Positions 1 through 53,609 of a stretch of 64,000 nucleotides of DNA are shown piece after piece. Made by a program: the position numbers and the translations under genes. Numbering within the stretch: position 1 is the first letter of the stretch; every line of letters begins with the position of its first letter. The DNA lies in IMG/VR virus record IMGVR_UViG_3300030107_003232, positions 1-64,000 of that record; one strand, written 5' to 3'. The DNA comes from a virus. The notes below the pieces were generated by a model. The model was not told where the DNA came from, ran no database searches, and saw only the letters and a list, made by a program, of their open reading frames with translations.

Positions 1-3000
1 TAAACTTTGTAAGTGTTGGTCTATTGGTATCTCAAATATCATAGCCAATTGCGGTCTTATTTCTATTGTGTCGCCTACAGCCCATGCTTGCGCTGTTCCA
101 TCAACAGTAGTTTGTTCCACTTCAATAGTAGTATTGTTTGTAACCTCAAGTATATTATGGTAAGTTACATCGCCACCAGCGACAGGAGTTCTTTCTAATA
201 CCATACCCTTTTTAATTCCGTTATCTTCGTAAGTTTCTCCTATGTTTTGTAAAACATAAGTTGCTACACCATCCACAGTTCCTGAGTTTATTGGGCTATC
301 TATACCGGAAGAACTACTATATATTGAATCTAATTTTCCATTCCATACAAAAAACCTATCGTTATTATTAGGGCTGTTATCTTCTCTATCATATACAGTA
401 ATAAGCCTACCCACCCCACTTTCAGCAAAGTTTGTAGTATCATCAATAGCCAAACCAATACTACCTAAAGGAAAACCGTTTGTTGCTGTTGTAACATCTG
501 ATATTAAGTGGTTTTGGTTTTGATGTTGTCTAAGAATACTACCTGTAGTTGAATAAGACGTAATAGATTCGGCCCAATAATTATCAATAAGAGCAGGGAA
601 CCCTTCTCTTTCTGCTACATAGTCTGATAAATCGGTTTTGCCGCCGCCAATCTGTCCGGTTCTGCCGTTATTTGCATGAGTATTAAGGTTAAAGAACTTA
701 GCGCAATCTATTACAATTAAAGAACCTGCTTTATTTTCCCAATCGTGAAATATATCAACTCTTTCTGCTTCACTACCGCCAGCCGGATAAGCAATTATTC
801 CACCGTCGTGTCCTGTAGTGGCGGAAAAATTAGTTGTTGTAGTCATCTGATTAGAAGTATTAGATGTTATTTCGTGTATTCCATCGTGGGCTGTGCTACC
901 TACTAAATGAACATAAGTGCCGAAGCCGCTTGAATCAGATACTGTTATTCTTAATTTACCCCCGTTATTATCAAGTGTTGCTGTATTGGGGCTTGTGTAA
1001 TCAGCGGGTTTTGAAAGCGGGGTTCCCGTAAACGGGTCAGATGTAGCATCCATATTCCATACTAAAAAGTCTTCACCGTTCCGTAACGAACCGAAATTGT
1101 CTAAATTACCTTCGGAATCTGTTTGGTCTGCAAAGTAAAGGTCAAAGGTATAATTTTCATCTATTGGGTATTGAAGACCGAATGATGTTTTTCTTTCTTC
1201 TCCATCAGCATTTGCATTACCGTTGTTTCTCATGTCGGACCAAAGAAGCCAAATGTGTTTGTAATCGTTATCTATATCTTGCACACGGAAATAGTATTGT
1301 CTATTTGCGGTATTGTTATCCGTAGGATATGTTCCCTGTATGTATTTAACTCCGGTTAAATAGTAATCAGAAGATACTTGTTGTTTGCCTTGATAAATAA
1401 ACTTTTCAAGATAGATTGCTCTTGTGCTATCCCAATATAAACCAAGACCTGCGGGCGGGTCCACAGCCCATATTTCGACTATGCCGGAGTTTGGAAAGTT
1501 CTCGTATGTTTTTTGTTCTATTTTAATACTCTTAGTGGTAGGAGAAAGACTTACACCGCCAACAGAAGTAGGCTTACTGTAATTTACTCTCGTTACACCA
1601 GAAGGTAAAGTATTATTTGTATAGTTATATTTAATTTTACCGAAATTGTATTGGAACCATAAAGACATAGGTAAATCTCTCATCCATTTGCTATGCAAAG
1701 CCCTATATTTAATATCAGAAGCGCTATTAGAATCGAATATATCTTCTATATATGCTGTATCTTTAGTCCAAGAAAACCTTGCTGTTCCGCTTAAGAAAGA
1801 ATCCGTTGTGTATGTTCCATGTGATTCAGACCCGCTATACGGAGTGTTTGTTTCAACCGACCAAAAATAACCTGCTGTGGTATAGTCGCTACCTGCATTA
1901 ACAGACAAATAAGACCTGATTTTTGAGATTTTTGTTACTCTATGTCTTACACGATAAGAAGCGGTTAGGTCAGCAGAAGCAGCATCATTTCTTCTATTAA
2001 TGTAAAAATAATCCCCAACTTTTAATTGCGGGTCTGATTCAAAAAATACATTTGTATAGAGAGGTGCATTACCGATGGGGTGGAATGCCGAAGGGCCAGC
2101 AGTATAAATATAATAAAATGCACTATCAAAATCCACACCATACCAAGAAAGATACAAAGCGGAATTAAGGCCCGGATATTTACCGATATAGAATATCTTA
2201 GAAGAATCATCAAAATTACTGTAAGCAAGGTCGCTTGCGTTAAAAGTTATTTCTCCTGTTGTTCCATCAACTGCTGTAGCACTAATAGTACTTGTGGTAG
2301 CATAATTATCTGCTGTAATATGAACATTAGCAAAATCACCTACTACTTTACCATGTGAAGCATTGTTAGGTATGGCTATAACTGTAGTGGCTGAACCTGT
2401 TGGTTCAGTAAAACCAAGAATGTTAAACGCTACATAATCATTTTCAACATTGTTTGGTCCATAATCATCTTCATTATTATACAATTGAATAGCATGACCC
2501 GAACCCAACTGCATTCTTTGGTCTGCTGTTTCTATGTAAGAGTTTTCTGTATCAAAGCCTATATTGTTATCAAGAAGTTTTAATTTGCCGCCACCAAGAT
2601 TCATAATATCTCTAAAGCCCTGCGCGCCATAACCCCAATAATCTGTAGGCTCACCGCTACTATCTTTATTTTTTTGTCCTATATCCCAAGTAGGAATTTG
2701 GTTATTTAGTTTTTCTATTGAATCTTTAGCGGAAATGGTTAATACTCTATTTCTATGTTTTTGTTTTATTGAAAATCTATCAACAAACCCACGCCATAAC
2801 GGACGGTCAATTCTTTCGTCTGTGTCGCCAAAGAATAACAAAGACCAATCAAGCGGGGCCGTTGCTACAAATAAACTTTGTAGGTTTAACACATAATCAG
2901 TTGCTGCTGCGCCTCTTACTCCGCCTGTTAAATCGGGGTCGTCTGCTATTTGCACTACACATGAAGAAATCCCGTTTGTTGGTTGTCTTAATTCTAAATT

Positions 3001-37618: not shown

Positions 37619-37855
37619 TCAAAAATTCTTGGTTTCGTTAAGGTATAGCCAATCGGGGTCTTCGTTGTATTTATCTCTTGAAATTAGGTAGGTTGATAAT
37701 TCGCCAATGGTCTGAGATAGTTCATTTATCAACTCGTTAAGATAAGGCTTATCTGGACACATTTTTGCGTATATTCTATCAATCATCACATTATGTAATG
37801 CGTTTACATCATCTTCTTGTAGTATCTTCCAATCGGGTTCGGCTTCTTTGCTCAT
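37619..37855 (-). CDS. Small acidic hypothetical protein
   Basis: The 78-residue helical protein MSKEAEPDWKILQEDDVNALHNVMIDRIYAKM... has a high proportion of Leu, Glu and Asp and ends SRDKYNEDPDWLYLNETKNF. TTGATAAG lies 29 nt before ATG 37855, and a palindromic box is at 37908-37929. Unknown function. Confidence 0.6.
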   Translation of the reverse strand: MSKEAEPDWKILQEDDVNALHNVMIDRIYAKMCPDKPYLNELINELSQTIGELSTYLISRDKYNEDPDWLYLNETKNF

Positions 37856-37907
37856 ATAGGGTCGTGGGGGTTGCCCCTTATCAATGCAGCGGCAGCGGCG
37901 GCATATT

Positions 37908-37929
37908 TACTACAAATTAATTTGTAGCA
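37908..37929. promoter_or_regulatory. Palindromic class I box for gene 37619-37855
   Basis: TACTACAAATTA overlaps TAATTTGTAGCA here (one mismatch to perfect symmetry). It lies about 53 nt before the ATG, with TATA (TTGATAAG) between. Confidence 0.7.
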
Positions 37930-37944
37930 ATTTTTCCGCTGCAA

Positions 37945-38177
37945 AAAAACCCGCAACGCCCCCGCTTCATCACGGCGGGGTGCGCTTAGGAGGGGCGGTG
38001 ATGAACCGCGAGGGCCGAAGCCAGCACCCCGAAGGGCTTTCTCACCCAACACACCGGAAGGGCCTTACCTCCCACCTGCTAAGGTTCTGCTGGGGTCATC
38101 ACAGGCGCGGGGTCTGCACTTTGTGCTTTCCGTAGCCCCCCATGAGAGGCGTTGGTTGGCCCGCCGTTGCAGACAAA
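37945..38177 (-). ncRNA. Candidate structured non-coding RNA, GC-rich
   Basis: Minus-strand transcription would begin near 38175, about 30 nt after GTTTCTTAAG (38196-38205) and downstream of a palindromic class I box (38223-38244). The roughly 230-nt region is clearly GC-richer than its surroundings, carries several short inverted segments (for example CCTTCCGG, GCCCTTCGGGG, GGCTTCGGCC on the minus strand) and ends with a GC stretch followed by seven Ts (37945-37951). No reading frame longer than about 25 codons uses this promoter. A promoter plus terminator without a gene suggests an RNA product. RNA class unknown. Confidence 0.5.
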
Positions 38178-38195
38178 CCTCCGAGTTGTGGTTTG

Positions 38196-38244
38196 CTTAA
38201 GAAACTTTCGATTGTATCTTTTTACTACAAATTAATTTGTAGTA
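38196..38244 (-). promoter_or_regulatory. Promoter of the candidate ncRNA
   Basis: A perfect palindromic box (38223-38244, TACTACAAATTA overlapping TAATTTGTAGTA) is followed on the minus strand by the TATA element GTTTCTTAAG (38196-38205), the same arrangement as before protein genes in this region. Confidence 0.65.
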
Positions 38245-38352
38245 TGTTTGCATCTGTATTTTTACTACAAATCTTTTACTACAAATCTCAGAAGGACTTA
38301 CACCCTCGGCAACGCTTCGCGCGCCTCTCGATGCCTTCGGAGGTTTTGATTT

Positions 38353-38676
38353 TCACTTTATGCCGTATCTCTTGCGCATTTCTTTCTTAGTGTGGCCCAT
38401 AGCACCAACGATTTGAATAATCAATCTTAATTTTTCGTTAGCCTCGCGCCGACTCCATCCAACATAAGAGCCACTTGAACCCGTTGCAGGGTGTCGGTGT
38501 TGCCCGTATGACTTAGGGGGTGAAGCGTATATGTTCCAGCCCCGTCCGTAAGTGGGCGAACCTTCTTCAAGAATGGTTCTCCACCCTTTAGGCATTAAGC
38601 CCGCATCTATTGTTAAGGCGTGTATGCGTTCAACAATCGCCTCTGTGTCTTTTTTCGTTTCTCTCATTTTATTCAT
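38353..38676 (-). CDS. Hypothetical basic protein
   Basis: The 107-residue protein from ATG 38676 (MNKMRETKKDTEAIVERIHALTID) has AGGAG just upstream; ATG 38667 is another possible start. The centre contains GWRTILEEGSPTYGRGWNIYASPPKSYGQHRHPATGSSGSYVGWSRREANEKL, a pattern of a small nucleic-acid-binding-like domain. The TATA box (about 38725-38740) predicts a leader of about 30 nt, unlike most neighbours. Function unknown. Confidence 0.6.
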   Translation of the reverse strand: MNKMRETKKDTEAIVERIHALTIDAGLMPKGWRTILEEGSPTYGRGWNIYASPPKSYGQHRHPATGSSGSYVGWSRREANEKLRLIIQIVGAMGHTKKEMRKRYGIK

Positions 38677-38753
38677 TCTCCTGTTGCGCCTTTTTGCGCT
38701 ATTCTGACCGAACAAGCGGCGGCATATATACTTAACGGCTTTTGAGGTGTATT

Positions 38754-38775
38754 TACTACAAATTAATTTGTAGTA
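38754..38775. promoter_or_regulatory. Palindromic class I box for gene 38353-38676
   Basis: A perfect palindrome of TACTACAAATTA and TAATTTGTAGTA lies upstream of a GTTAAGTATATA-type TATA region. Confidence 0.65.
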
Positions 38776-38828
38776 GTAGTTTTTCGGTTATTTTACTACA
38801 AAATATGTAATACAAAATAGAATCCAAA

Positions 38829-39017
38829 TTATTCTTCGTCTTCGTATTTGTATATTTCAACGAACTCGCCGCACATAGGACAATAATATGTGGGGCTTAG
38901 TCCTGAATCGCCCATCGCGTCAATAAGTCTATCGAGTTCTTCCGATGGGGTGCAGCATTCGTAAAACGGTGATGTACCGCTGTGTAGCAAATAATAGCGT
39001 GGTGTGTATTTCGCCAT
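38829..39017 (-). CDS. Small zinc-ribbon protein
   Basis: The 62-residue protein MAKYTPRYYLLHSGTSPFYECCTPSEELDRLID... contains CC and, near the end, TYYCPMCGEFVEIYK (CxxC). The promoter is clear: CCTTAAATAC begins 31 nt before ATG 39017 and a palindromic box sits at 39060-39081. It is the rightmost leftward gene. Confidence 0.65.
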   Translation of the reverse strand: MAKYTPRYYLLHSGTSPFYECCTPSEELDRLIDAMGDSGLSPTYYCPMCGEFVEIYKYEDEE

Positions 39018-39059
39018 GAATCGCAGACATGGTAGGGGTATTTAAGGCTGTCGTTTCAT

Positions 39060-39081
39060 TACTACAAATTAATTTGTAGTA
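39060..39081. promoter_or_regulatory. Palindromic class I box for gene 38829-39017
   Basis: A perfect palindrome (TACTACAAATTA overlapping TAATTTGTAGTA). The near half-site lies 43-54 nt before the ATG, with TATA CCTTAAATAC between. Confidence 0.72.
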
Positions 39082-39430
39082 TTGGTCGGGGCCGTTTTAC
39101 TACAAATTAAAAACTACAAAATACTTACTACAAATTAAAATCCAAAAATCAAAATCCGAAAAATTACTACAAATTATTTACTACAAATTAAACTTAGTGC
39201 AAAAAGTAAAGCGGGTGTTGTGAATTACATCGAGTGCAAAAACAAAAGTGGGTGCAAAAAGTGCAGCAGGTGCGAATGACGCAGTAGGTATCTGACGCTT
39301 TACTACAAATTATTCGGGAGAGTGCTGTTTCCAAACTATTATATAGTATGACTACCTCACGCATGGGTCGCGTAATATCGCGGCTATATATTTTTCTTAT
39401 TTTACTACAAAATACTTACTACAAAACATG
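39082..39430. repeat. Divergence region with repeats
   Basis: This non-coding stretch separates leftward and rightward small genes. It holds about four exact TACTACAAATTA copies at 39097-39190 and single copies near 39299 and 39416. Imperfect GTGCAAAAAG-type repeats lie at about 39200-39275, GAGAGTGCT occurs twice (about 39317 and 39442), and there is an AT-rich TATTATATAG. Only a weak 35-codon frame (ATG 39363) is present. A replication origin or bidirectional control region is possible. Confidence 0.5.
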
Positions 39431-39731: not shown

Positions 39732-40304
39732 ATGGAGAATGCCCGTTTAGGCATGGCTCAAGGCATCAAATACTCATCGAGGTCATTGGGGGGCCACACC
39801 ACCCAATACCGCCGTCTATGCCGCCTTGCAGGTATCAAAATTGACCTGCCCGAAATCAAGGCCATAAAGCCCATCGGCAAGCCTTGCCGCTACAAAGCCT
39901 GTAAGGGCCGCAATCATGCCCTTCACGGTGAAAAATGCCCTATCGCATCAGCGCGAGGCAAGACCGGAGGCAAGTCCGGCGAAGGCGATTCAAAGAGGCG
40001 CAACGGTGAAGCAAATGGCCGCTACATTGACGGGCGTAAAAATGCCGTCAAGAAGCAATTGATTTCTCAAGTTATTGTCGGTCAAAAAATCAACAAGACC
40101 GCCCGCGAAATCCTCAACATCAATCCGATTACATGGCTCGATTCAGCCATCACAACCGCCGCAGTAGCGGGTATGCTCGGTGGCGTGCGTGGTGTCTGTT
40201 CCGGTTGCTCTCAATCAATCCCTGCGATTCAGGCACGCAAGATTCACCGTGCCGACATCACACAGAATCCGGCAAGGGTGATATGCGACGCTTGCGAAGC
40301 ATGA
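39732..40304 (+). CDS. Basic Cys-containing hypothetical protein
   Basis: The 190-residue protein has a basic Gly/Lys-rich middle (SARGKTGGKSGEGDSKRRNG). Possible zinc sites are CRYKACKGRNHALHGEKC and CSGCSQS...ICDACEA, and a helical segment KKQLISQVIVGQKINKTAREI lies between. The zinc-knuckle and basic pattern suggests RNA or DNA binding. The final codons overlap the first class II box, which serves the next gene. Not recognised as a known family. Confidence 0.6.
   Translation: MENARLGMAQGIKYSSRSLGGHTTQYRRLCRLAGIKIDLPEIKAIKPIGKPCRYKACKGRNHALHGEKCPIASARGKTGGKSGEGDSKRRNGEANGRYIDGRKNAVKKQLISQVIVGQKINKTAREILNINPITWLDSAITTAAVAGMLGGVRGVCSGCSQSIPAIQARKIHRADITQNPARVICDACEA
40287..40297 (+). promoter_or_regulatory. 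Class II promoter box 1
   Basis: GACGCTTGCGA begins exactly 55 nt before ATG 40342; TTATAAA lies at about -28. It overlaps the last codons of the upstream gene. Confidence 0.8.
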
Positions 40305-40341
40305 TAAAAAAACTTATAAAAAAAACAGGAGAGGACAAAAT

Positions 40342-40602
40342 ATGAACAAAAAGCAAATGAGCGCCGATGAAGACTTTTTACAGTATGCTCGCAATGATAT
40401 CGAGAGGCAGATTGCGCTCGGTCAAATGTATGCTATTGATGAAGACCCAAAGCCCGAACATTGTAGTGAAGATGGGCATTGGAACGATGGAGAGAACTTC
40501 TATACTATACTCAATCTATGGGGGCAATACCACTACGATGAAACAAAGGCAGAAGAATTACTCTATAAAATGTTCAAAGAGGAATATCCTCAATACTTAT
40601 GA
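40342..40602 (+). CDS. Small acidic hypothetical protein
   Basis: The 86-residue protein MNKKQMSADEDFLQYARNDIERQIALGQM... is acidic and aromatic (WNDGENFYTILNLWGQYHYDE). AGGAGAGG lies before the ATG. Class II promoter. Function unknown. Confidence 0.62.
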   Translation: MNKKQMSADEDFLQYARNDIERQIALGQMYAIDEDPKPEHCSEDGHWNDGENFYTILNLWGQYHYDETKAEELLYKMFKEEYPQYL

Positions 40603-40620
40603 AATGACGGCAAAGAAGAT

Positions 40621-40631
40621 GACGCTTGCGA
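40621..40631 (+). promoter_or_regulatory. Class II promoter box 2
   Basis: GACGCTTGCGA, non-coding here, begins exactly 55 nt before ATG 40676. TTCATAAAA is at -29. Confidence 0.82.
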
Positions 40632-40675
40632 GGAATAAACGATAGATTCATAAAAAAAAGAAAAGAGGAATAAAT

Positions 40676-41095
40676 ATGACGAGAAGACAAATGGGCGCAC
40701 ACGGAGAAATCTGTAAGCGCGTAAGTGGAAAAATAATGATGACTGTTAGGCCACAGCCCGAAGTATTAACGGCTGAGGATTGCGCGATGATACTCGGCTA
40801 TCGGTGTTTAGGTGGTTGCGGTGGCGGATTCATAGGCGAGCCTAAAACGACCGAACACGGCTTTAGAAGCCCCATAACTCAAGATGCGGTCGAGGCCATA
40901 GCATACTACGAGCGTAAGGGCAAATTAACGCAGAAAAAAGCCCTGCGTTTGTTATCCGACTCATGGGTGCTAACCAATTACACAAATTACACCGACATGA
41001 TAGAGCAGTTCGATGAAGACAATTGGAATCACCGAGCCATTCGGGCATGGGTGCTTAGGGTTTTCCCGAAGTTCTCAACAGGGGTGATTGAATGA
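40676..41095 (+). CDS. Hypothetical protein
   Basis: The 139-residue protein has a Gly-rich loop (YRCLGGCGGGFIGEPKT) and a helical C-terminal half. GAGG lies before ATG 40676. It is the first gene of an operon with the next two genes, which follow by ATGA overlap. No family recognised. Confidence 0.62.
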   Translation: MTRRQMGAHGEICKRVSGKIMMTVRPQPEVLTAEDCAMILGYRCLGGCGGGFIGEPKTTEHGFRSPITQDAVEAIAYYERKGKLTQKKALRLLSDSWVLTNYTNYTDMIEQFDEDNWNHRAIRAWVLRVFPKFSTGVIE

Positions 41096-41286
41096 AAGTA
41101 TTAGAGAATGGAATGTATAATGGCGCGTGCTTTGACGGCGAGCGATTTAATGCCGAGCATGATTGGTATGTCGAATCATCGGAGATTGATTTTGACGGCA
41201 CTAATTGGGTTCATGTTGCAGTTATATTGTGTTGCTCGGATTGCGACAAAAAAATAGAAACGGATTATTCGTGGGATGTGGAATGA
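41092..41286 (+). CDS. Small hypothetical protein with CCxxC
   Basis: The 64-residue protein MKVLENGMYNGACFDGERFNAEH... ends with VILCCSDCDKKIETDYSWD, a single zinc-type knuckle. It overlaps its upstream neighbour by ATGA. Confidence 0.6.
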   Translation: MKVLENGMYNGACFDGERFNAEHDWYVESSEIDFDGTNWVHVAVILCCSDCDKKIETDYSWDVE

Positions 41287-41547
41287 ATGAGAAGCGAAGA
41301 TGTATGGTATGGTTCAGACCCATGTATTGATGAGGACGAATTGCCCTCAAGGGTTTTCGACCACGATGTATGCCCCGAATGCGACAAGGCCATGCCCGAC
41401 CAAGACTTAGCGGAGTTTGGTATCGAGGAGTGCGATTGTGTCGAATGCGATGGCTGCGGCGAATGGAAATCCTTTGAAGACTTCTGTAATGTATCAAATA
41501 TATGCGATTCATGTTATGAACACGATGACGCTTGCGAGGGCGAATGA
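41287..41547 (+). CDS. Zinc-ribbon-rich hypothetical protein
   Basis: The 86-residue acidic protein has many Cys: CPECDKAMPDQ, CDCVECDGCGEWKSFEDFCNVSNICDSC. This could form two zinc sites. It starts right after the preceding stop. Its last codons hold class II box 3. Confidence 0.65.
   Translation: MRSEDVWYGSDPCIDEDELPSRVFDHDVCPECDKAMPDQDLAEFGIEECDCVECDGCGEWKSFEDFCNVSNICDSCYEHDDACEGE
41527..41537 (+). promoter_or_regulatory. Class II promoter box 3
   Basis: GACGCTTGCGA begins exactly 55 nt before ATG 41582; TTTAAGAG is at -29. It is read as DACE in the upstream gene. Confidence 0.82.
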
Positions 41548-41581
41548 AAGGATTTAAGAGTCAAGGATAGGTGGAGAAAAT

Positions 41582-41806
41582 ATGGGCAATACATGGAAAA
41601 GCCGACAACCCGCAAGGGATAAAGACGCACTAAAAAGAATACAGGCACGTTATGACGAGTGGAAATCACAGTTTAGCGATGCTATTCCTAATCGTGTAGG
41701 TACGACCTACAAATGGAATGAGGCTAAGGTCAAGAATTGGTTTGAATCGTTGCCTCGCACAATTGCAGACCGAGAGAAGGCATTTGTAAAGGAGATGAAA
41801 GAATGA
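41582..41806 (+). CDS. Small basic hypothetical protein
   Basis: The 74-residue protein MGNTWKSRQPARDKDALKRIQARYDEW... is helical and basic. First gene of an operon of four. GGTGGAG lies before the ATG. Function unknown. Confidence 0.62.
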   Translation: MGNTWKSRQPARDKDALKRIQARYDEWKSQFSDAIPNRVGTTYKWNEAKVKNWFESLPRTIADREKAFVKEMKE

Positions 41807-41976
41807 GCAAGAAGAAGTTTATTTATCGTAAAATTAAAGTCTTTGAATTAGAGTTTGAAGCATGGTCGAGAGCGCACGCAGAAGAAATGCTTGAAGATGG
41901 TTATTTGATTTACCACGACTATGAAATGGAATGTAAAGAGGATAAAGAAGTGATTGTGTCGAAGGTGATTCGATGA
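41803..41976 (+). CDS. Small hypothetical protein
   Basis: A 57-residue frame MSKKKFIYRKIKVFELEFEAWSRAHAEEMLEDGYLIYHDYEMEC... linked by ATGA to the previous gene. Beta-alpha-beta pattern, ending VIVSKVIR. No family recognised. Confidence 0.6.
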   Translation: MSKKKFIYRKIKVFELEFEAWSRAHAEEMLEDGYLIYHDYEMECKEDKEVIVSKVIR

Positions 41977-42131
41977 GCAACATGAGTTATATTAGATTTG
42001 AAAATACCTTTAGCGACCTTGAGGATTGTTATTACAATTGGGATGATGACGACATATCAGAAAGAGAAGAAAGGTGGCGAAAGAGATTGTTGGAATTATG
42101 CGAGTCAATCGTTCAATCTTATGGGGAGTGA
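41973..42131 (+). CDS. Small acidic hypothetical protein
   Basis: The 52-residue frame MSNMSYIRFENTFSDLEDCYYNWDDDDISEREERWRKRLLELCESI... overlaps the upstream stop by ATGA. A run of Asp precedes an amphipathic helix. Confidence 0.58.
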   Translation: MSNMSYIRFENTFSDLEDCYYNWDDDDISEREERWRKRLLELCESIVQSYGE

Positions 42132-42137
42132 TGAAGA

Positions 42138-42281
42138 ATGGATGAATATACGAAAGTATTTGATGATGTCGTTCAAGCATTGGTTGGTTTGAGAGATTCA
42201 AGGTTCATTACGCCGCTGCTAACAGAAGAAAAAACTATTCAAGGTTGGATAGACTTTTGTATTGACGCTTGCGAGGACTAA
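42138..42281 (+). CDS. Very small hypothetical protein
   Basis: The 47-residue frame MDEYTKVFDDVVQALVGLRDSRFITPLLTEEKTIQGWIDFCIDACED has a continuous helical pattern. It follows the previous gene by 6 nt and its end carries class II box 4. Confidence 0.58.
   Translation: MDEYTKVFDDVVQALVGLRDSRFITPLLTEEKTIQGWIDFCIDACED
42264..42274 (+). promoter_or_regulatory. Class II promoter box 4
   Basis: GACGCTTGCGA begins exactly 55 nt before ATG 42319; TTAAAAG lies at about -28. Confidence 0.82.
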
Positions 42282-42318
42282 ACAATAACCTTAAAAGAAA
42301 ACACGGAGAGGAGTAAAT

Positions 42319-42528
42319 ATGAGCAAAGGCACATACAACAAAGAATGGACAGCATACTACGAATACCTTGAGTTCTTGAGGCAATCGGGCGCGACTAATA
42401 TGTTCGGCGCAGCACCTTATCTTCAAGACCACTATGGCCTTGAGAAGCGCGAAGCAGAACTTGTTTTGCATTCGTGGATGAAGAACTACAATGCACTATT
42501 AGAAGACGGGGTGATTTCAAATGATTGA
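42319..42528 (+). CDS. Small hypothetical protein
   Basis: The 69-residue protein MSKGTYNKEWTAYYEYLEFLRQSGATNMFGAAPYLQDHYGL is helical and aromatic. GGAGAGGAG lies before the ATG. The centre matches a helical fold seen in small phage proteins (FGAAPYLQDHYGLEKREAELVLHSWMKNY). It overlaps the next gene by 8 nt. Confidence 0.62.
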   Translation: MSKGTYNKEWTAYYEYLEFLRQSGATNMFGAAPYLQDHYGLEKREAELVLHSWMKNYNALLEDGVISND

Positions 42529-42805
42529 ACCAATAATTACAGTAAGTAAAGAGATGAAAGAAGCACTACAATATGCTCTTTCAGATATGAGAAGCCCAAA
42601 GATAATGTGTAATTATTTGATTGAGAGATTTCAAGACCAAGCGATAAATGAATGCTCATGGAAATGTCTTTACATATCAAAGAATTACATAGACATAATC
42701 AAAAATTATGAGGTCATTGAGAGGCGGTTTGGGTGCGACGGCGAGTTCAGAAGTAAATTAAACGAACTTCTCAGACAGGAAACATTAGAAGATTGGGGGT
42801 TTTGA
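42521..42805 (+). CDS. Hypothetical protein
   Basis: The 94-residue protein MIEPIITVSKEMKEALQYALSDMRSPKIMC... has mixed helical structure and a single CxxxC. Within the operon begun at 42319. No family recognised. Confidence 0.6.
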   Translation: MIEPIITVSKEMKEALQYALSDMRSPKIMCNYLIERFQDQAINECSWKCLYISKNYIDIIKNYEVIERRFGCDGEFRSKLNELLRQETLEDWGF

Positions 42806-42806
42806 A

Positions 42807-43244
42807 ATGAGCGAACCGAAATTATATCGAGATAAAATATCAACAGATAGCAGCACACCAACCCACCAATTGCGATATGCAACAGGCTGGCTAACCGATT
42901 ATATGCACCACGATAATAACGGGATTAGATACTATACCCCCGAAACTGTGAAGGCTGTAATCAAGAACCTACACGCCGATGTGTCCGATGCACAGGCCGC
43001 CATATTGAACGACAAATCAACGACGCAAGTTATCTTTGAGATAGGCCGAATGAAGCCCGAAGACGAAAAGCCGATTTGGGCTCATTCATCCGATAGGGGT
43101 TTTTGGATAGGCGACAGAACTAATCTTAACCTAAAAATACTTCAGATGCGAAAGGGGTCGGTTGATGCTATACATTGGCCGAAAGCCCGCGACGCTTGCG
43201 ACGACAATTCCCAAACTTTATTAGAGAGGTTTGAGGAGGAATAA
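42807..43244 (+). CDS. Hypothetical protein
   Basis: The 145-residue protein has an alpha/beta pattern with YYTPETVKAVIKNLHADVSDAQAAILN. Two codons near the C-terminal end form class II box 5. Follows the previous gene by 1 nt. Possible partner of the DUF932-like protein encoded next. Unknown function. Confidence 0.6.
   Translation: MSEPKLYRDKISTDSSTPTHQLRYATGWLTDYMHHDNNGIRYYTPETVKAVIKNLHADVSDAQAAILNDKSTTQVIFEIGRMKPEDEKPIWAHSSDRGFWIGDRTNLNLKILQMRKGSVDAIHWPKARDACDDNSQTLLERFEEE
43191..43201 (+). promoter_or_regulatory. Class II promoter box 5
   Basis: GACGCTTGCGA begins 56 nt before ATG 43247; TTTATTAG lies near -29. The gene downstream encodes a DUF932-like protein. Confidence 0.78.
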
Positions 43245-43246
43245 AC

Positions 43247-44236
43247 ATGACGAGCAGAAACTTGCTACCATCATACGCCCTCTTAGGGCAAGAAGCCAAA
43301 GGAACGACCGCCGAAGAAGTCCTTGCTAACGCAGGGCTTGACTTTGAGGTGAAGAAAGCCCCATCGGGCTACATGAACCCTCAAGGGGATTTCGTAAGAC
43401 ATAGAGGACATACCATTACCTACCGTGCCGATACAGGCGCAGCATTGGGTAGCGTATCATCCTCATACGAGGTATTTCAGAACCATGACGCATTGAAAGT
43501 CTTTGACCGATTAGTAGGCGAAGGCCGAGCCGAATACGACCGCATCGGTATGATTGACGGCGGGCGAAAGATGTTTGCGAGCATGAAGATGCCCGAAGGA
43601 TTCACCGTAGCGGGTTGGGATGATATAGACCAATACCTATACATGATTACATCTCACGATGGTTCAACAGGCGTGCGATATATCCCTGCGAATGTCCGTG
43701 TAGGATGCACTAATCAATTCGCTTATCTTGACTCTATGCTAAAGCAAGCGGGCATCAATCCTCGCGTGCTATCAAGCCGCCACTCAAGGTACATTGAAGG
43801 TCGCATAGAGCAAGCAATTCAGGCGTTGAATGTCGTTGATGTCCTCAACGAGCAATTCGCTAACACAGCGGGCGAACTCATGCAGGTCGAACTCGATGTA
43901 GCGGGTCGAACCGAATTTTACATCGACGCTATGGGCCTCAAGACTGACGAGAAGTTGGTTGATAAGGTGGAGAATCCGTTTGGTCTAACCACACGCGGCA
44001 ACAACACCCTCACACGGCTTCAAGAGTTAGAAGATACCGCTCTCGGATTCGATGACGGCGACATCAACAGCGCATGGGGCGCATTCAATGTGATTAGCGA
44101 ATATCTCGACCACGCATGGGTCTATGACCGCAAGGGCGAGAAGGTCAATCAAAAGAGAGTCGAATCGGCCCTACTCGGAACAGGAGCAAGGCAGAAGGAC
44201 AAAGCATGGGCGGCAGCCGCACGGTTGGTCGCCTAA
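43247..44236 (+). CDS. DUF932-family phage/plasmid protein
   Basis: The 329-residue protein has clear DUF932 features: AGLDFEVKKAPSGY, ITYRADTGAALGSVSSSYEVFQNHDALKVFDRLVGEG, KMFASMKMPEGFTV and GSTGVRYIPANVRVGCTNQFAYL. The N-terminal half is beta-rich, the C-terminal half helical. Members are encoded by many phages and plasmids and are thought to act in DNA metabolism, but the biochemical role is unclear. GAGGAGG precedes the ATG. Confidence 0.85.
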   Translation: MTSRNLLPSYALLGQEAKGTTAEEVLANAGLDFEVKKAPSGYMNPQGDFVRHRGHTITYRADTGAALGSVSSSYEVFQNHDALKVFDRLVGEGRAEYDRIGMIDGGRKMFASMKMPEGFTVAGWDDIDQYLYMITSHDGSTGVRYIPANVRVGCTNQFAYLDSMLKQAGINPRVLSSRHSRYIEGRIEQAIQALNVVDVLNEQFANTAGELMQVELDVAGRTEFYIDAMGLKTDEKLVDKVENPFGLTTRGNNTLTRLQELEDTALGFDDGDINSAWGAFNVISEYLDHAWVYDRKGEKVNQKRVESALLGTGARQKDKAWAAAARLVA

Positions 44237-44485
44237 GATTCACATAAGGGAGTAGGGGGGTTCAAGTAGGTTCGATAAGAAGGCTCAACGTATATGCAGC
44301 CGACTATTCATCGTTCCCACCCCCTCTCCCACCATCAGATTCACATAAGCAGGGAGGGGAGTTCAACAGTCTTTTACAGGTTGTGTTCGTCATTTCATAC
44401 CTCCATTCTCCCCTCCTTGCACCTATACAATTACAGTAAAAATAACTCAACAACATAAGGGGGTGTAGTGGGAACGAAGGCGAGG
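44237..44485 (+). ncRNA. Candidate structured non-coding region
   Basis: This gene-free stretch has nested inverted repeats. TCGTTCCCAC (44311-44320) pairs with GTGGGAACGA (44468-44477, perfect 10 bp), and inside it GGAGGGGAG (44353-44361) pairs with CTCCCCTCC (44408-44416, perfect 9 bp). AGATTCACATAAG occurs twice (44236-44248, 44337-44349) and looks like the TTCATAAG TATA boxes. Strand is uncertain. Could be a structured RNA, DNA origin or attenuator. The rest up to 44621 holds nothing I recognise. Confidence 0.4.
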
Positions 44486-44621
44486 CTATACATTTGGGGT
44501 AGTCCAAACCGTTATCCAATCGTCTTTACGAGAGCCGTCGGATAAGCCATCATGGTCGGAGAGAGATAAGATAATTACGCCATGCCCACGCACCCCCACC
44601 TTACAATCAAGAGATGATAAA

Positions 44622-44717
44622 ATGAAGCAAGCAAGAAGACATAGATACATACAGAAATTCAAGGCCCGCGTAAAGTCGGGTGAGAAGAATAGCCGCATGA
44701 AGAAAGGGGATGAATGA
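44622..44717 (+). CDS. Very small basic protein
   Basis: A 31-residue frame MKQARRHRYIQKFKARVKSGEKNSRMKKGDE. Strongly basic, likely nucleic-acid binding if made. Start 1 nt away from overlapping genes downstream; promoter not seen. Confidence 0.4.
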   Translation: MKQARRHRYIQKFKARVKSGEKNSRMKKGDE

Positions 44718-44843
44718 ATGATTCGTGAGGCCATGAGCGAAATATACGATAACGAGTATGACGCAGTAGTAGCGACCGTGCGCGTGTATGCAATCGGATT
44801 CATGGCTATTATTACGCTAATAGTAAGTGCGGTGTTCCTTTGA
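44718..44843 (+). CDS. Very small membrane protein
   Basis: A 41-residue frame MIREAMSEIYDNEYDAVVATVRVYAIGFMAIITLIVSAVFL with one membrane segment at the C-terminus. Immediately follows the stop of the basic frame. Confidence 0.45.
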   Translation: MIREAMSEIYDNEYDAVVATVRVYAIGFMAIITLIVSAVFL

Positions 44844-44926
44844 AGTGCAACGACCCGACTCATCCAAAAGTAGTAGGCGAGTCCTATTGCCGTGTGTGCA
44901 AGCGAAAGAGCGAAGAAGAAGAATGA
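44840..44926 (+). CDS. Very small zinc-knuckle protein
   Basis: From a TTG at 44840 overlapping the previous stop, a 28-residue frame reads MKCNDPTHPKVVGESYCRVCKRKS followed by Glu residues. Its C...CRVC pattern resembles other zinc ribbons here. Its stop overlaps class II box 6. Low certainty because of size and start codon. Confidence 0.4.
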   Translation: MKCNDPTHPKVVGESYCRVCKRKSEEEE

Positions 44927-44935
44927 CGCTTGCGA
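44925..44935 (+). promoter_or_regulatory. Class II promoter box 6
   Basis: GACGCTTGCGA begins exactly 55 nt before ATG 44980 and overlaps the TGA of the previous frame; TTCTTAAG is at -29. The region from box to ATG resembles the class I promoter before ATG 36784 (GGCxTAATCGAAxGGTTC then TAAGCAAAC). Confidence 0.8.
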
Positions 44936-44979
44936 GGCGTAATCGAAGGGTTCTTAAGCAAACATCCCTACGACAAATC

Positions 44980-45135
44980 ATGGCGAAGGACACAGAAGCC
45001 AACGAGGACACAACGCAGAAAGAGGCTATTGAATGGCTTGAGAAGAACGAACACTTATCGTTCTTAGGGCATGGAACACAGGCCCGACATGAGTGGATGG
45101 TTGAATACATGAGAAGGATAGCAAAGGGTGAGTGA
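44980..45135 (+). CDS. Small hypothetical protein
   Basis: The 51-residue frame MAKDTEANEDTTQKEAIEWLEKNEHLSFLGHG... is helical and acidic. The class II promoter fixes the start at 44980 although the frame is open further upstream. First gene of an operon. Confidence 0.6.
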   Translation: MAKDTEANEDTTQKEAIEWLEKNEHLSFLGHGTQARHEWMVEYMRRIAKGE

Positions 45136-45138
45136 GAA

Positions 45139-45369
45139 TTGAGAGCAAAGACAATCCCTCATGTGGAATACGAGATATTCCAGCATATACTTGACGAGAT
45201 AGATATTTCTATCGTAAAAGAAAGTCTTGTTCCACGCGGAGATAAAATCGCCGAAGAACGATTTGAGAAGGGCGCGGCATCGGCAACGAATCTGATTGAG
45301 AATCTGATTGAGCGTCGCCTACACAGGCTGCCGCACGACCACCCCGACTTCAAGGAGAGAGAGGCATGA
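45139..45369 (+). CDS. Small hypothetical protein (TTG start)
   Basis: The 76-residue protein starts at TTG 45139 (MRAKTIPHVEYEIFQHILDEIDISIVKESL); no ATG is available. Mixed helical pattern with IENLIERRLHRLPHDHPDF. It overlaps the next gene by ATGA. Confidence 0.55.
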   Translation: MRAKTIPHVEYEIFQHILDEIDISIVKESLVPRGDKIAEERFEKGAASATNLIENLIERRLHRLPHDHPDFKEREA

Positions 45370-45590
45370 AGCACATTAGAGAGGGATTCGATAGAATCTG
45401 TGGAACACCTGTACCGGAACAAGGCGGCTACATCAGCGATGCTGAATGGCGCAAGTTGCCGGAGTGTCCGGTATGCTTCGCCAAATACCAGCCCACGCTT
45501 GCGAAGCAAGAACGACAGACTCAAAAGCAAACTGCCCCACCAAAGACTGTAAGACAGGGGCTATACCTGCGACAATATACGAGGCGATGA
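45366..45590 (+). CDS. Small basic protein with CxxC
   Basis: The 74-residue protein MKHIREGFDRICGTPVPEQGGYISDAEWRKLPECPVCFAKY... has one CPVC knuckle and a basic Gln/Lys-rich C-terminus. The codons PTLAK contain an additional CACGCTTGCGA (45494-45504) without a start codon at the expected distance. Confidence 0.6.
   Translation: MKHIREGFDRICGTPVPEQGGYISDAEWRKLPECPVCFAKYQPTLAKQERQTQKQTAPPKTVRQGLYLRQYTRR
45494..45504 (+). promoter_or_regulatory. Class II-like box 7 (orphan)
   Basis: CACGCTTGCGA lies inside gene 45366-45590 and 100 nt before ATG 45594; there is no start codon 54-56 nt downstream. It may be inactive, or may serve the next gene with a longer leader. Confidence 0.45.
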
Positions 45591-45593
45591 AGA

Positions 45594-45905
45594 ATGAAAC
45601 CAATTAGTAATATCTCAAAAGTAAGTGGTAAAACCACACGGGTAAAGAACGGCTGGATGATAAAGGCGATAGCACGCTACCTTGACGAAGTAGGAGAGGC
45701 GACGGCTACGCAAATAAAAAACCACGCAAGGAGTAAGGGTAGTAAGCGCAAGGCCAGCGGGTCGAGGCTCACAGGACTAAATGCTCAACAGATAAGCGGT
45801 CGTCTAAGGATTCACAAATCATTCGCGGCTGAGAAGAAGTTTTGCACTCACTCAAGAAAGGAAATTAACTATTGGAGATTAGTAAATAGGGAGTTAATTG
45901 AATGA
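45594..45905 (+). CDS. Small winged-helix-like protein
   Basis: The 103-residue basic protein has the repeated architecture of this virus's winged-helix proteins: MIKAIARYLDEVGEATATQIKNHA (helix 1, turn, helix 2), GLNAQQISGRLRIHKSFAAEKKF (recognition helix and wing), then a YWRLVNREL strand. Similar layout in proteins at 46293, 47944, 50438 and 53211. Probably binds DNA; may be a transcription regulator. Confidence 0.6.
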   Translation: MKPISNISKVSGKTTRVKNGWMIKAIARYLDEVGEATATQIKNHARSKGSKRKASGSRLTGLNAQQISGRLRIHKSFAAEKKFCTHSRKEINYWRLVNRELIE

Positions 45906-46018
45906 GATGCGAAGTATGCAAGGGCAGGGGCTTTACCATAGGATTCAGCGTCGTTGCTATGGAGAGAGAGATGGAACGATGTTGGGCGTGCAACGGTTGC
46001 GGTAAGGTGATTGAATGA
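45902..46018 (+). CDS. Small DnaJ-type zinc-finger protein
   Basis: The 38-residue frame MRCEVCKGRGFTIGF...ERCWACNGCGKVIE has the CxxCxGxG pattern of the DnaJ central zinc domain and a second CxxC pair. It overlaps both neighbours by ATGA. Such mini zinc fingers are common in phages. Confidence 0.62.
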   Translation: MRCEVCKGRGFTIGFSVVAMEREMERCWACNGCGKVIE

Positions 46019-46254
46019 GTAAATTTGAGGAAAAAGTAATTGATAAGATTCGTAGCCGAGCAGAAGTCGGTAAGAAAAAATACGGCACGACAATGGAACG
46101 CGAAGACCTTTCATTGATTGAGTGGCTGACCCATCTTCAAGAGGAACTGCTGGACGCAAGTGTATATGTCGAGCGGCTCATCGAAGATACACAATGTCCG
46201 ATTCATGGTCTTGAGGATGCGGGTTGCCCGTATTGCAGACGCTTGCGAAGATGA
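46015..46254 (+). CDS. Hypothetical protein, MazG-like nucleotide pyrophosphohydrolase pattern
   Basis: The 79-residue protein has KVIDKIRSRAEVGKKKYGTTMEREDLSLIEWLTHLQEELLDASVYVERLIED, which matches the small DUF550/dATP-dUTP pyrophosphohydrolase-like phage proteins (helical with EELLDAxxY). After it come CPIHGLEDAGCPYC, a zinc-like knuckle. The family hydrolyses or binds nucleotides. Its last codons contain class II box 8. Confidence 0.6.
   Translation: MSKFEEKVIDKIRSRAEVGKKKYGTTMEREDLSLIEWLTHLQEELLDASVYVERLIEDTQCPIHGLEDAGCPYCRRLRR
46238..46248 (+). promoter_or_regulatory. Class II promoter box 8
   Basis: GACGCTTGCGA begins exactly 55 nt before ATG 46293; CTTAAAAC is at -29. It decides between the possible starts 46278 and 46293. 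Confidence 0.8.
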
Positions 46255-46292
46255 ATAGAAACCCTTAAAACAGACTGATGCGTGGGATTTTT

Positions 46293-46562
46293 ATGAGAAA
46301 AAAGCGAGTTAGACGGCAGATTGTGGACACCCTGCGAGCGAATCCCGATGGGCTTACGGCAGGTCAAATACTTGACCGACTACCCTCACAAAGAAATGTG
46401 AGCGATGCAAGGCATTTAGCGAACCTGCTACGAGGGATGAAGAACATAAAGAAAAGAAAGGTAAAATTGGGCCATCAACCATTCTATGCCGCAAAGAAGA
46501 ATCACGTTGCTACATGGTATGTAAATGAATACTATTACGATGAAGAAGGGGCAGAAATATGA
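46293..46562 (+). CDS. Small winged-helix protein
   Basis: The 89-residue basic protein from ATG 46293 (MRKKRVRRQIVDTLRANPDGLTAGQILDRLPSQRNVSDARHLANLLRGMK) has a clear winged-helix pattern with a basic wing and an aromatic C-terminal strand. A longer start at 46278 is possible but is not at the expected distance from box 8. Candidate DNA-binding regulator. Confidence 0.68.
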   Translation: MRKKRVRRQIVDTLRANPDGLTAGQILDRLPSQRNVSDARHLANLLRGMKNIKKRKVKLGHQPFYAAKKNHVATWYVNEYYYDEEGAEI

Positions 46563-46807
46563 AGAAATACAAAGATTATTTAGCGGAAAAAGAAAGAGCG
46601 GTGAAAGAAGACGACCCTGTGTTTGAATACACAGACAACCATGACTTGAATGAGATGCGGCAGTTGGTCGAAGACATGACGAGATGGATGAGCGTTGGTT
46701 CAAATGCCGTCAAGACTTCACAGAAGATGTTGCACGACTTCAAAGATGTTATGAAGCGAGCAAACGCAATAGTGCGTGATAACAAACTCAAGCGGGGCGA
46801 TTACTGA
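46559..46807 (+). CDS. Helical hypothetical protein
   Basis: The 82-residue charged protein MKKYKDYLAEKERAVKEDDPVFEYTD... has long amphipathic helices (LVEDMTRWMSVGSNAVKTSQKML), suggesting a coiled-coil partner. It overlaps both neighbours by ATGA-type junctions. Confidence 0.6.
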   Translation: MKKYKDYLAEKERAVKEDDPVFEYTDNHDLNEMRQLVEDMTRWMSVGSNAVKTSQKMLHDFKDVMKRANAIVRDNKLKRGDY

Positions 46808-47745
46808 TGGCGAAGCGATTTGTGGAATTAGTAGTGGCTGACTTAGAGGTGCAAGAGGCGAGAGAGTATCACGATAAGGGAACGAAGGCGCAGAAGCACC
46901 CTTACGTCAGATTGCGACACTTAAGAAAGGGTGGGGGTAAATCATTTCCGAACTACGAAATCAAAGATAGATATGTAATGTATCGCCTGTTGAAATCGTG
47001 CGACCCGTCATTGGCCTATGATATGATGATGCAGACCCTGTATCATGTATCTATCGAGGACAGGCCGCCGATGCAAGACATATTGCAGGGCTACATAGAC
47101 CATGCTGAAACCGACCGCATAGGCGTTTGGGTTGAGTACGCAAATAAAAAACCACGCGAGGTTGAGGTATGGTATTCATCTGACGACTCGATAATCCTTG
47201 CCGTTGATAACACCGACTTTACCATGAGCCACTACTTCAACAGCACTTGTAGTTTTATACGGGCTAATTACCTGCCGGACTACACAGAAAGCAGTAGGAC
47301 AATGACTATGCAAGGAAAGCAATATCCCGTGATGCAATTTACAAAGAAAGAAGAAGATATTAGTTGGATAACACCGGATAAAAAAATATACACGGCAATA
47401 GAAATACTATCCTGTAATAATAAGACTTACATTAAGGGTAAAGTATCTGTTTTCCCTGTACCCTCTAATAGTAGGCATAACTTACAATTCACACCAATGA
47501 AGGTCTTTGACGGCTTCGCGCATACACTTAATGCGGCTGAGTTAGGGGCGTATCTATCCCGTCTAACTCGCACGCTTGAGTATGCCGCTACACTTAACCT
47601 AAACCCTATACTTGGTGAGTTCTCGGACAGTAATAGATTGATGGATTGGATGGAGAATAGCAGACTTGAATATGAAAATGCCCATAAAACTAAGTCGGGT
47701 ATTGACGGACTCGTTAATTCTTTCTATAATTCACTTACGGACTGA
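46807..47745 (+). CDS. Hypothetical protein, 312 residues
   Basis: An alpha/beta protein with basic start (MAKRFVELVVADLEVQEAREYHDKGTKAQKHPYVRLRHL), beta-rich centre (REVEVWYSSDDSIILAVDNTDFTMSHYF) and C-terminal helices. No catalytic motif recognised. Last gene of the operon begun at 46293; its stop is followed by inverted-repeat element B. Confidence 0.62.
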   Translation: MAKRFVELVVADLEVQEAREYHDKGTKAQKHPYVRLRHLRKGGGKSFPNYEIKDRYVMYRLLKSCDPSLAYDMMMQTLYHVSIEDRPPMQDILQGYIDHAETDRIGVWVEYANKKPREVEVWYSSDDSIILAVDNTDFTMSHYFNSTCSFIRANYLPDYTESSRTMTMQGKQYPVMQFTKKEEDISWITPDKKIYTAIEILSCNNKTYIKGKVSVFPVPSNSRHNLQFTPMKVFDGFAHTLNAAELGAYLSRLTRTLEYAATLNLNPILGEFSDSNRLMDWMENSRLEYENAHKTKSGIDGLVNSFYNSLTD

Positions 47746-47873
47746 AAGAATAAAACGCACTACTGCGCCCCTATTTCCTATTTCTTCAATTCTTTCAAAG
47801 GTATGTAAGGTATAGGTAAGGTCTTTACATATCTATGAAGAAATTAAAAAAATAAACAACAGGCTCGCAGTAT
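47742..47873. repeat. Inverted-repeat element, copy B
   Basis: Outer arms ACTGCG (47762-47767) and CGCAGT (47866-47871) and inner arms ATTTCTTC (47780-47787) and GAAGAAAT (47837-47844) match copy A at 28.4 kb. The interior hairpin differs: ATGTAA...TTACAT (47803-47829). The shared flank is GAAAGAAT...ACGC...ACTACTGCG on the left and GGCTCGCAGTAT on the right. Length between arms is 110 nt here against 156 nt in A. Confidence 0.7.
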
Positions 47874-47889
47874 AGCGATTTATTATTTC

Positions 47890-47900
47890 CACGCTTGCGA
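47890..47900 (+). promoter_or_regulatory. Class II promoter box 9
   Basis: CACGCTTGCGA, in non-coding DNA, begins 54 nt before ATG 47944; TTAAAAG lies at about -28. Confidence 0.78.
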
Positions 47901-47943
47901 GAAGAATAAAAATAATTAAAAGCGTAGTAGGAGAGGAGAAGAT

Positions 47944-48360
47944 ATGCCCCGACCACAGAATAAGCGATTGACGGAACGAGTCTATCATTACTTACGAGAA
48001 CAAGATAAACCTATGACCTCCCACGAAATCGTTTGGTGGTATATGGAGGAGTATGCGGCTGGGACTAAAGGGCCGGATGGATATTCCACGCGAAGCGGTA
48101 TGGGGAACAGCCCACCGACACCAAACGCTCTATCTAATCTTATGAGGCGTAGCCTTCTCTTTGAGTGCGTAGGTAAAGAGAATAAAAAGGGTAAGGCTAT
48201 TGATTATGAACGGAAAGATGGTAATAGTGTTAATCTATGGGTTGCGCGTCCACTTGATATTGTAGTTGAAAGGGCTATCGCAAGTAAAAGGCCCGTTAAA
48301 AAATATCCCGCATTTTTGCAAAAGGAAATGAGGAGGGTTTTAGATGCCGAAGATAATTGA
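47944..48360 (+). CDS. Winged-helix-like protein
   Basis: The 138-residue basic protein MPRPQNKRLTERVYHYLREQDKPMTSHEIVWWYMEEY... has a two-helix HTH followed by a conserved-looking loop (SPPTPNALSNLMRRSLLFECVG) and a wing. It is related in layout to other small winged-helix proteins here. GGAGAGGAG lies before the ATG. First gene of the operon leading to the AAA+ ATPase. Confidence 0.65.
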   Translation: MPRPQNKRLTERVYHYLREQDKPMTSHEIVWWYMEEYAAGTKGPDGYSTRSGMGNSPPTPNALSNLMRRSLLFECVGKENKKGKAIDYERKDGNSVNLWVARPLDIVVERAIASKRPVKKYPAFLQKEMRRVLDAEDN

Positions 48361-53005: not shown

Positions 53006-53187
53006 TAGGATTTCTCGGTGGGGTTATTCTATTATATTTATTAGGGTACGTTTGTATTGTTTTGGATAAATACCTTTTCCCTAAAAATAACCATAATTTT
53101 TCGGCGCAAAATTCGACGCTTGCGAAGAATGATGATGATTCGTTTATAAACGGCATAATGTGGGCTGATGTAGGCAACGACTTATAA
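52996..53187 (+). CDS. Small membrane protein
   Basis: The 63-residue protein MVLVGFLGGVILLYLLGYVCIVLDKYLF... has one strong N-terminal membrane segment and an acidic tail. The codons STLAK carry the orphan class II-like box 10. It overlaps the upstream gene by 10 nt. Confidence 0.6.
   Translation: MVLVGFLGGVILLYLLGYVCIVLDKYLFPKNNHNFSAQNSTLAKNDDDSFINGIMWADVGNDL
53115..53125 (+). promoter_or_regulatory. Class II-like box 10 (orphan)
   Basis: GACGCTTGCGA occurs inside gene 52996-53187, followed at the expected distance by a TATA-like TTTATAAA (about 53143), but no start codon lies 54-56 nt downstream. It is 96 nt before ATG 53211. Could drive a transcript with a longer leader or be silent. 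Confidence 0.5.
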
Positions 53188-53210: not shown

Positions 53211-53609
53211 ATGAGCGCGAACAACAGGCGGGTTCGCCGAGCCATAGTTGAGATACTATGGGAACATGGTCCGCTTACGAAAGAGGGTGTGGCTGAGAAG
53301 TTATCCTCTTTGAAGAATGTTCGTGCTGTTCCATCGCCCCACAGTCTGTCGGCTCTCCTCTCTAAGAACTCACAGATTGTAGCGGTAGGTAGTGAGAAGG
53401 TGGAGAACGCAGTAGGTATCAAGGCATCTCATTTGTTGTATGATGTGGATAGAGAAGTTATGAAGTCTAAGGATGATATAGTTTATACCCGTAGTCCGAC
53501 CGTTATGACTCCAAAGCAGAAGCGCGAAGCGCGACAATGCACCTGTGGCCGAATGCGTATTTTTCCAACGGATTCGCAGGTCTGCATACATTGTCTTCGC
53601 AATACTTAA
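53211..53609 (+). CDS. Winged-helix protein with zinc ribbon
   Basis: The 132-residue protein MSANNRRVRRAIVEILWEHGPLTKEGVAEKLSSLKNVRAVPSPHSLSALLSKN is a winged-helix domain like that at 46293. The C-terminus has CTCGRMRIFPTDSQVCIHCLRNT, a zinc ribbon. The combined HTH/zinc ribbon suggests a transcription factor. A TATA-like stretch ACTTATAATACC (about 53179) precedes the ATG at -31. Heads the replication region. Confidence 0.7.
   Translation: MSANNRRVRRAIVEILWEHGPLTKEGVAEKLSSLKNVRAVPSPHSLSALLSKNSQIVAVGSEKVENAVGIKASHLLYDVDREVMKSKDDIVYTRSPTVMTPKQKREARQCTCGRMRIFPTDSQVCIHCLRNT

Follow-up and report, generated by a model that had tools for sequence, protein, structure and literature searches.

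We analyzed 64 kb (hereafter, the window) of the 68,491-bp virus record IMGVR_UViG_3300030107_003232, in which a short element with the pattern SACGCTTGCGA (the box) recurs upstream of a series of genes. In the window the pattern occurred exactly 10 times, always on the + strand, compared with a mean of 0.06 in 100 dinucleotide-shuffled sequences; the reversed-letter control pattern had none, and the remaining 4.5 kb of the record contained no copy of the box. An initial annotation of this DNA had listed ten + strand positions, all of which proved exact, and had estimated that such an 11-mer would be expected well under once in 64 kb, in agreement with the shuffled sequences. The genes following the boxes are small genes of unknown function, one DUF932 gene and genes predicted to encode winged-helix proteins. 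The boxes, the TATA elements of their promoters, with position weight matrix (PWM) scores, and the genes of main concern are listed below; offsets are counted in nt from the start of the box.

40287..40297, + strand: box 1, GACGCTTGCGA; ATG 40342 at +55; within the 3′ end of open reading frame (ORF) 39732-40304
40314..40320, + strand: TATA of promoter 1, TTATAAA; PWM 16.6, p < 0.001
40621..40631, + strand: box 2; ATG 40676 at +55
40648..40654, + strand: TATA of promoter 2, TCATAAA; PWM 14.7
41527..41537, + strand: box 3; ATG 41582 at +55; within the 3′ end of ORF 41287-41547
41554..41560, + strand: TATA of promoter 3, within TTTAAGAG; PWM 11.3
42264..42274, + strand: box 4; ATG 42319 at +55
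42291..42297, + strand: TATA of promoter 4, within CTTAAAAG; PWM 18.3
43191..43201, + strand: box 5; ATG 43247 at +56; inside the end of ORF 42807-43244
43218..43224, + strand: TATA of promoter 5, within TTTATTAG; PWM 9.4
43247..44236, + strand: DUF932 gene (329 aa), box-controlled
44925..44935, + strand: box 6; ATG 44980 at +55
44952..44958, + strand: TATA of promoter 6, within TTCTTAAG; PWM 10.6
45494..45504, + strand: box 7, CACGCTTGCGA; atypical, start 45594 at +100, and likewise +99/100 in four relatives
46238..46248, + strand: box 8; ATG 46293 at +55
46265..46271, + strand: TATA of promoter 8, within CTTAAAAC; PWM 13.4
46293..46562, + strand: gene, usually box-bearing, for a small winged-helix protein, candidate box-binding regulator
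47890..47900, + strand: box 9, CACGCTTGCGA; ATG 47944 at +54
47917..47923, + strand: TATA of promoter 9, within ATTAAAAG; PWM 17.2
47944..48360, + strand: box-controlled gene, predicted from sequence only to encode a winged helix-turn-helix (wHTH) protein
53115..53125, + strand: box 10; atypical, ATG 53211 96 nt downstream
53211..53609, + strand: winged-helix protein with a C-terminal Cys4 zinc ribbon, candidate box-binding regulator

An ATG was found 54–56 nt after the box start for 8 of the 10 boxes, and the probability of at least 8 such cases is ∼2 × 10^−11, because an ATG so placed exists at only 2.9% of + strand positions in this region. The spacing was +55 nt for the boxes at 40287, 40621, 41527, 42264 and 44925, +56 nt for that at 43191 and +54 nt for that at 47890. 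The box at 46238 also shows +55 nt if the start is taken as 46293, which fits the rule; a second in-frame ATG, at 46278, lies at +40. With that start, the spacings were as the initial annotation described them. The window boxes occupy differing reading frames as well as non-coding DNA. Conservation at the protein level was rejected because of these differing frames and non-coding copies, because the upstream stop codons keep no set position with respect to the box and because, among relatives, the reading frame that the site corresponding to box 10 occupies in the overlapping upstream gene varies. The box is thus kept as DNA, as had been proposed.

We further examined related viral records. 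Searches with PolB and DUF932 yielded relatives spanning ∼95% to 51% PolB identity, and scans for the box plus TATA added others, including G033 (61 kb, 11 boxes), G034, G035, G359 and G360/G361. The 10-mer had 52 exact matches in 32 related records, compared with none for the reversed pattern, and its matches nearly always lay on the same strand within any one record. For 79 of 105 exact boxes, found in 28 records, an ATG opening an ORF of at least 28 aa was present 54–57 nt downstream, and the genes concerned belong to 33 unrelated protein families; when up to two mismatches were allowed, 106 promoters and 38 families were obtained. Exact boxes numbered 12.8 per canonical offset versus 0.34 per control offset (∼40-fold), and one-mismatch boxes 5.2 versus 0.46 at other offsets (∼11-fold). 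Moreover, when 8-mers were counted at fixed offsets before starts without reference to the box, the box was the top signal in seven records (G000, G028, G029, G033, G034, G035 and G039). Canonical boxes were absent from G023 and G024, two divergent records that cover part of the region. A chance origin was ruled out by the shuffles, the reversed-pattern controls, the control offsets and the spacing probability. The initial annotation had considered that the 11-mer might occur in relatives at a similar rate with no fixed distance to starts; the opposite was seen, with the same box, orientation and spacing recurring before these 33–38 families.

The aligned promoters show an archaeal architecture. 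Among 90 box-aligned promoters, ACGCTT was near-invariant (partly reflecting selection by the mismatch limit) and was followed by G, C, G and A, with the G at +9 invariant; downstream were a weaker extension, RGCA, a run of A at box+21..23, where a TFB-recognition element (BRE) is positioned, and TTAWAAR at box+27..33. Among 47 ATG-aligned promoters, TATA fell at about –28 to –22, a conserved GAGGA at –11 to –7 and an A-rich stretch at –5 to –2. The order of elements is therefore box, BRE-like AAA, archaeal TATA and ATG, with the A-rich BRE directly 5′ of TATA and TATA ∼25 nt before the start, as in archaeal BRE/TATA promoters. The box lies 5′ of the BRE-like A run and TATA-like elements follow at the expected distance, which bears out the earlier placement of the box beyond the BRE and ∼16 nt from TATA. 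In relatives, the box-to-TATA spacing took a single value in 53 of 61 promoters and was one less in 6, and the box is therefore phased to the core promoter. Indeed, it is tied more tightly to TATA than to ATG, and the 54–57 nt spread arises mostly between TATA and ATG. Variants such as TACGCTTGCGTA reveal an ACGC-TT-GCGT dyad with an asymmetric center, which would suit a dimeric helix-turn-helix protein yet preserve direction.

Because the archaeal TATA element lies ∼26–30 bp before the transcription start (PMC5817253), transcripts are predicted to begin at the ATG or no more than a few nt from it and to be largely leaderless. Among Poseidoniales genome starts with free upstream DNA, a small sample (n = 117), TATA-like sites were enriched at –34 to –29 (11 versus 2 in shuffled sequences). 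The strong GAGGA, together with a TATA position predicting leaderless transcripts, hints at two modes of translation.

The box marks a subset of the genes. It was found in the canonical place before 10 of 10 homologs of the gene at 40676, 8 of 12 of the DUF932 gene at 43247, 10 of 15 of the gene at 46293 and 9 of 14 of that at 47944, and before none of the homologs of the genes at 46015, 46559, 48344, 50775, 52090, 52346, 53211, 54933 and 57953. Core replication genes had a canonical box in 0 of 16–20 cases. Most of the 33–38 box families had no Pfam match, with exceptions such as DUF932. Within the box-carrying clade, 10 of 13 distinct 53211 homologs retained the box-10 site upstream (0–1 mismatch), at distances that varied from –92 to –129. 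The initial annotation had proposed a regulon of small accessory genes; the regulon held up, core replication genes being without the canonical box, and the description as small accessory genes is too narrow for a set that includes a 329-aa DUF932 protein and several winged-helix proteins. The observation itself is confirmed, and its reading as a regulon-defining upstream promoter element is supported by the BRE-plus-TATA logo, the de novo k-mer recovery and the recurrence in relatives.

Two further families are worth recording. The family of ORF 39732-40304, just 5′ of the box region, is conserved in box-carrying records (37–94%), contains several CxxC motifs and has no canonical box of its own. 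In record G033, a box-controlled gene for a 138-aa protein (box at L152:11981, – strand) matches Kyano_Gp96 (E = 1.7e-11), a Pfam family named from Kyanoviridae.

The virus encodes a portal protein, a terminase, a tail tube, a tape-measure-type protein, PolB, an RFC-like AAA protein, a GroEL-type chaperonin, an ERCC4-HhH protein and a PD-(D/E)XK protein; primase matches were weak. Its replication and structural modules are oppositely directed, and the combination of PolB, clamp loader, chaperonin and tailed-virus genes agrees with the gene content of Magrovirales. Among the matches listed, those of PolB were best to haloarchaeal tailed viruses (25% identity), and no magrovirus reference was among the nearest records listed. 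GroEL was 36–39% identical to the GroEL of 10 of 60 Poseidoniales genomes, versus 33–34% for the best phage records listed. Viruses of Marine Group II (MGII) clades 2–4 encode a GroEL that groups with that of MGII (PMC5332604), and Aoguangviridae have the same genome layout (PMC10768690). Because the PolB, RFC-like, ERCC4-HhH and GroEL evidence is consistent with these reports, the virus is probably a magrovirus-like archaeal tailed virus, and its host probably belongs to Poseidoniales. A search of 319 Poseidoniales genomes with a 445-aa protein found no viral contig or provirus, a result that is uninformative alone.

As candidate box-binding factors we consider the families of 46293 and 53211. 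The former is a winged helix according to its secondary structure (model predicted local distance difference test score, pLDDT, 77), its model had no significant match in PDB, and its members occur in those box-carrying records that span the region, the divergent G359–G362 among them, whereas none was found in the box-less G023 and G024. The latter combines a winged helix with a Cys4 ribbon (model pLDDT 90), and its top PDB fold match was TFIIE-alpha (E = 2.8e-4, with a low TM-score). A viral TFB or TFE was rejected as the factor, as nine records gave no Pfam TFIIB or TFIIE_alpha hit.

Taken as a whole, we regard it as highly probable that the box serves an archaeal tailed virus as an upstream promoter element. 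GACGCTTGCGA stands 16 bp 5′ of TATA, just past the BRE, in one orientation and spacing before more than 30 unrelated families across a viral clade. In the mechanism that we propose, a sequence-specific factor, most likely a winged-helix protein of the virus (46293 or 53211 family), would bind the near-palindromic ACGC-TT-GCG core and promote the assembly of host TBP/TFB on the neighboring TATA; dispersed small accessory and wHTH genes would thereby be switched together. Transcripts would then begin at or near the ATG, ∼25 nt after the TATA center, and GAGGA may serve read-through messages from tightly packed upstream genes.

Several points weigh against this reading. Boxes 7 and 10 are exceptional, the next genes starting +100 and +96 nt away. 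A GAGGA Shine-Dalgarno sequence at –11 to –7 misfits purely leaderless mRNA. The BRE looks reasonably good, and an activator is therefore not obviously needed. The lack of the 46293 family in G023 and G024 could reflect divergence or fragment ends, and homologs of 53211 are present in those same records. Furthermore, all records are metagenomic or fragmentary, with inferred gene starts and no viral genome certified complete, and in records found by the box-plus-TATA scans the seeding match is not independent, although the remaining boxes are.

Whether the box acts positively is a separate question, on which we lean towards activation. The strongest alternative, which we consider possible though clearly the less probable account, is that a viral repressor resembling Aca8 uses the box as its operator, such that a strong promoter active at entry would later be shut off by an accumulating box-controlled wHTH protein. 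The frequent boxes before the wHTH genes 46293 and 47944 and the conserved box before 53211 fit such autorepression, BRE and TATA appear good unaided, and the shared early promoter sequence of Sulfolobus islandicus rod-shaped virus 2 (SIRV2) is thought to be repressed by the wHTH protein Aca8 (PMC11065993). However, the box is clear of the BRE, TATA and the site where transcription is predicted to begin, and an element fixed at one rigid spacing and in a single orientation to TATA looks more like a TBP/TFB contact than an operator.

We also compared promoter units of unrelated genes within and between viruses. Similarity was 0.493 within versus 0.444 between viruses from box to TATA, and 0.526 versus 0.453 from TATA to ATG (permutation p ≤ 0.001 for both), whereas the 30 nt 5′ of the box showed no homogenization (0.264 versus 0.271). 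Because homogenization runs from box to ATG and not upstream, the promoter unit begins at the box, and this pattern suggests that promoter units have been duplicated or converted. It would also fit a mobile regulatory cassette, in which the box is a homologous seed that shuffles promoter-gene units in a hypervariable arm, with regulation secondary, much as for the promoter early stem-loops (PeSLs) of T4-like phages; the great variability of the downstream genes agrees with this. As a primary explanation we find it unlikely, as the strict TATA phasing and near-invariant core require a protein-DNA explanation and a box of 11 bp makes a poor seed for recombination by itself, although the two readings are compatible.

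A broader scheme, speculative and on balance improbable as a joint claim, holds that the virus has several promoter classes served by host RNA polymerase, that the TFIIE-alpha-like winged-helix/zinc-ribbon protein acts as a sigma-like selector of the box class and that box-to-ATG cassettes spread onto acquired genes; the box class would then be the dispersed accessory regulon and a TTTATATCCGTA class the replication genes, with others besides. The promoter-like signature TTTATATCCGTA occurs at 53975-53986, 54885-54896, 57924-57935, 59943-59954 and 62562-62573, 29–48 nt before the replication genes at 54004, 54933, 57953, 59990 and 62592, where the GACGCTTGCGA box is absent. Similar sites are present in relatives (TTTATAACCGTA in G034), and the count of TTTATATCCGTA with two mismatches in the window alone was not significant.

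It appears quite unlikely that the box is recognized by a transcription factor of the host, whose regulon the virus would then exploit. Host factors must assemble on TATA, and in two related Poseidoniales genomes a box precedes an ATG, with an AT-rich ATATATTAC close to where TATA canonically lies (G317:C41:14991-15048 and G101:C13:728-785). However, the box-plus-ATG pattern gave ∼59 hits in 293 Poseidoniales genomes, mostly coding-like, and a host regulon is unlikely because most lack TATA at the right place; apart from these two possible cases, none of the 293 genomes showed a clear host promoter built in this way. Finally, a bacterial-type promoter, with TTGCGA as –35, an AT-rich –10 and a bacterial host, would fit the 16-bp spacer and a ∼16-nt leader with a Shine-Dalgarno sequence, but is scarcely credible given that the nearly invariant last T of a –10 hexamer was found in 0 of 47 promoters at –22, which led us to reject a sigma-70 promoter, that the BRE-like A run fits archaea and that PolB, RFC, ERCC4-HhH and GroEL indicate MGII archaea.

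Apart from the promoters, TACTACAAA occurs 60 times in the window versus 0.86 expected, nearly always between small minus-strand genes at 33180-39425, and the palindrome ACTACAAATTAATTTGTAGT accompanies them in five copies. G030 and G029 carry the same 8-mers as the TACTACAAA repeats, and G031 carries another version, ACTACATAA. These repeats are possibly terminators or a repeat system.

The box system works like two known archaeal ones. In SIRV2, the early genes have in common a regulatory sequence around TATA/BRE, on which Aca8 probably acts as a repressor and which has been used to find anti-defense genes (PMC11065993); both are virus-specific consensus sequences, with TATA/BRE, common to many small, mostly unique genes including wHTH targets, whereas here a GC-rich 11-mer, known from sequence alone, lies 16 bp from TATA in a broad clade of marine viruses that probably infect Poseidoniales. 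The ups, or ultraviolet-inducible, hexanucleotide of Sulfolobus acidocaldarius lies at –44 to –39, upstream of the BRE and before many genes, and promoter activity requires it (PMC5817253). It is likewise a short motif 5′ of the BRE, but is a host element, non-palindromic and AT-rich, whereas the box is viral, near-palindromic and at ∼–55 to –45 from the predicted start.

Other parallels are drawn from secondary accounts. The GTC element of SIRV1 and SIRV2 is described in many promoters (Kessler et al. 2004, as cited in PMC5569661) and is also a virus-specific cis element in a fixed place, but is 3 nt long and 3′ of TATA, whereas the box is 11 nt long and 5′ of the BRE, 16 bp upstream of TATA. 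The archaeal activators Ptr2 and TFB-RF1, as summarized in PMC5569661, stimulate by recruiting TBP or TFB, as proposed here, but are cellular, with no known link to the viral proteins here. PeSLs, as Arbiol 2010 is cited in PMC4503421, are likewise repeated promoter units before variable small genes, associated with gene shuffling, but belong to a bacterial phage and form a stem-loop. The kind of system is thus known from SIRV2, and the box sequence, its phasing and the host group appear new; in the open-access literature searched no paper with both magrovirus and promoter was found, and a mention in Philosof et al. 2017 or Prabhu et al. 2025 is possible.

The box provides a sequence handle: the small genes of the regulon that it marks are mostly unknown, metagenomes can be searched with it for related viruses, and a few winged-helix proteins emerge as candidates for direct binding tests in vitro. 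In Sulfolobus viruses, anti-defense genes are believed to be plentiful in the comparable gene set. If our reading is true, one regulator would control the whole gene set together, through a virus-specific switch beside a normal archaeal promoter.

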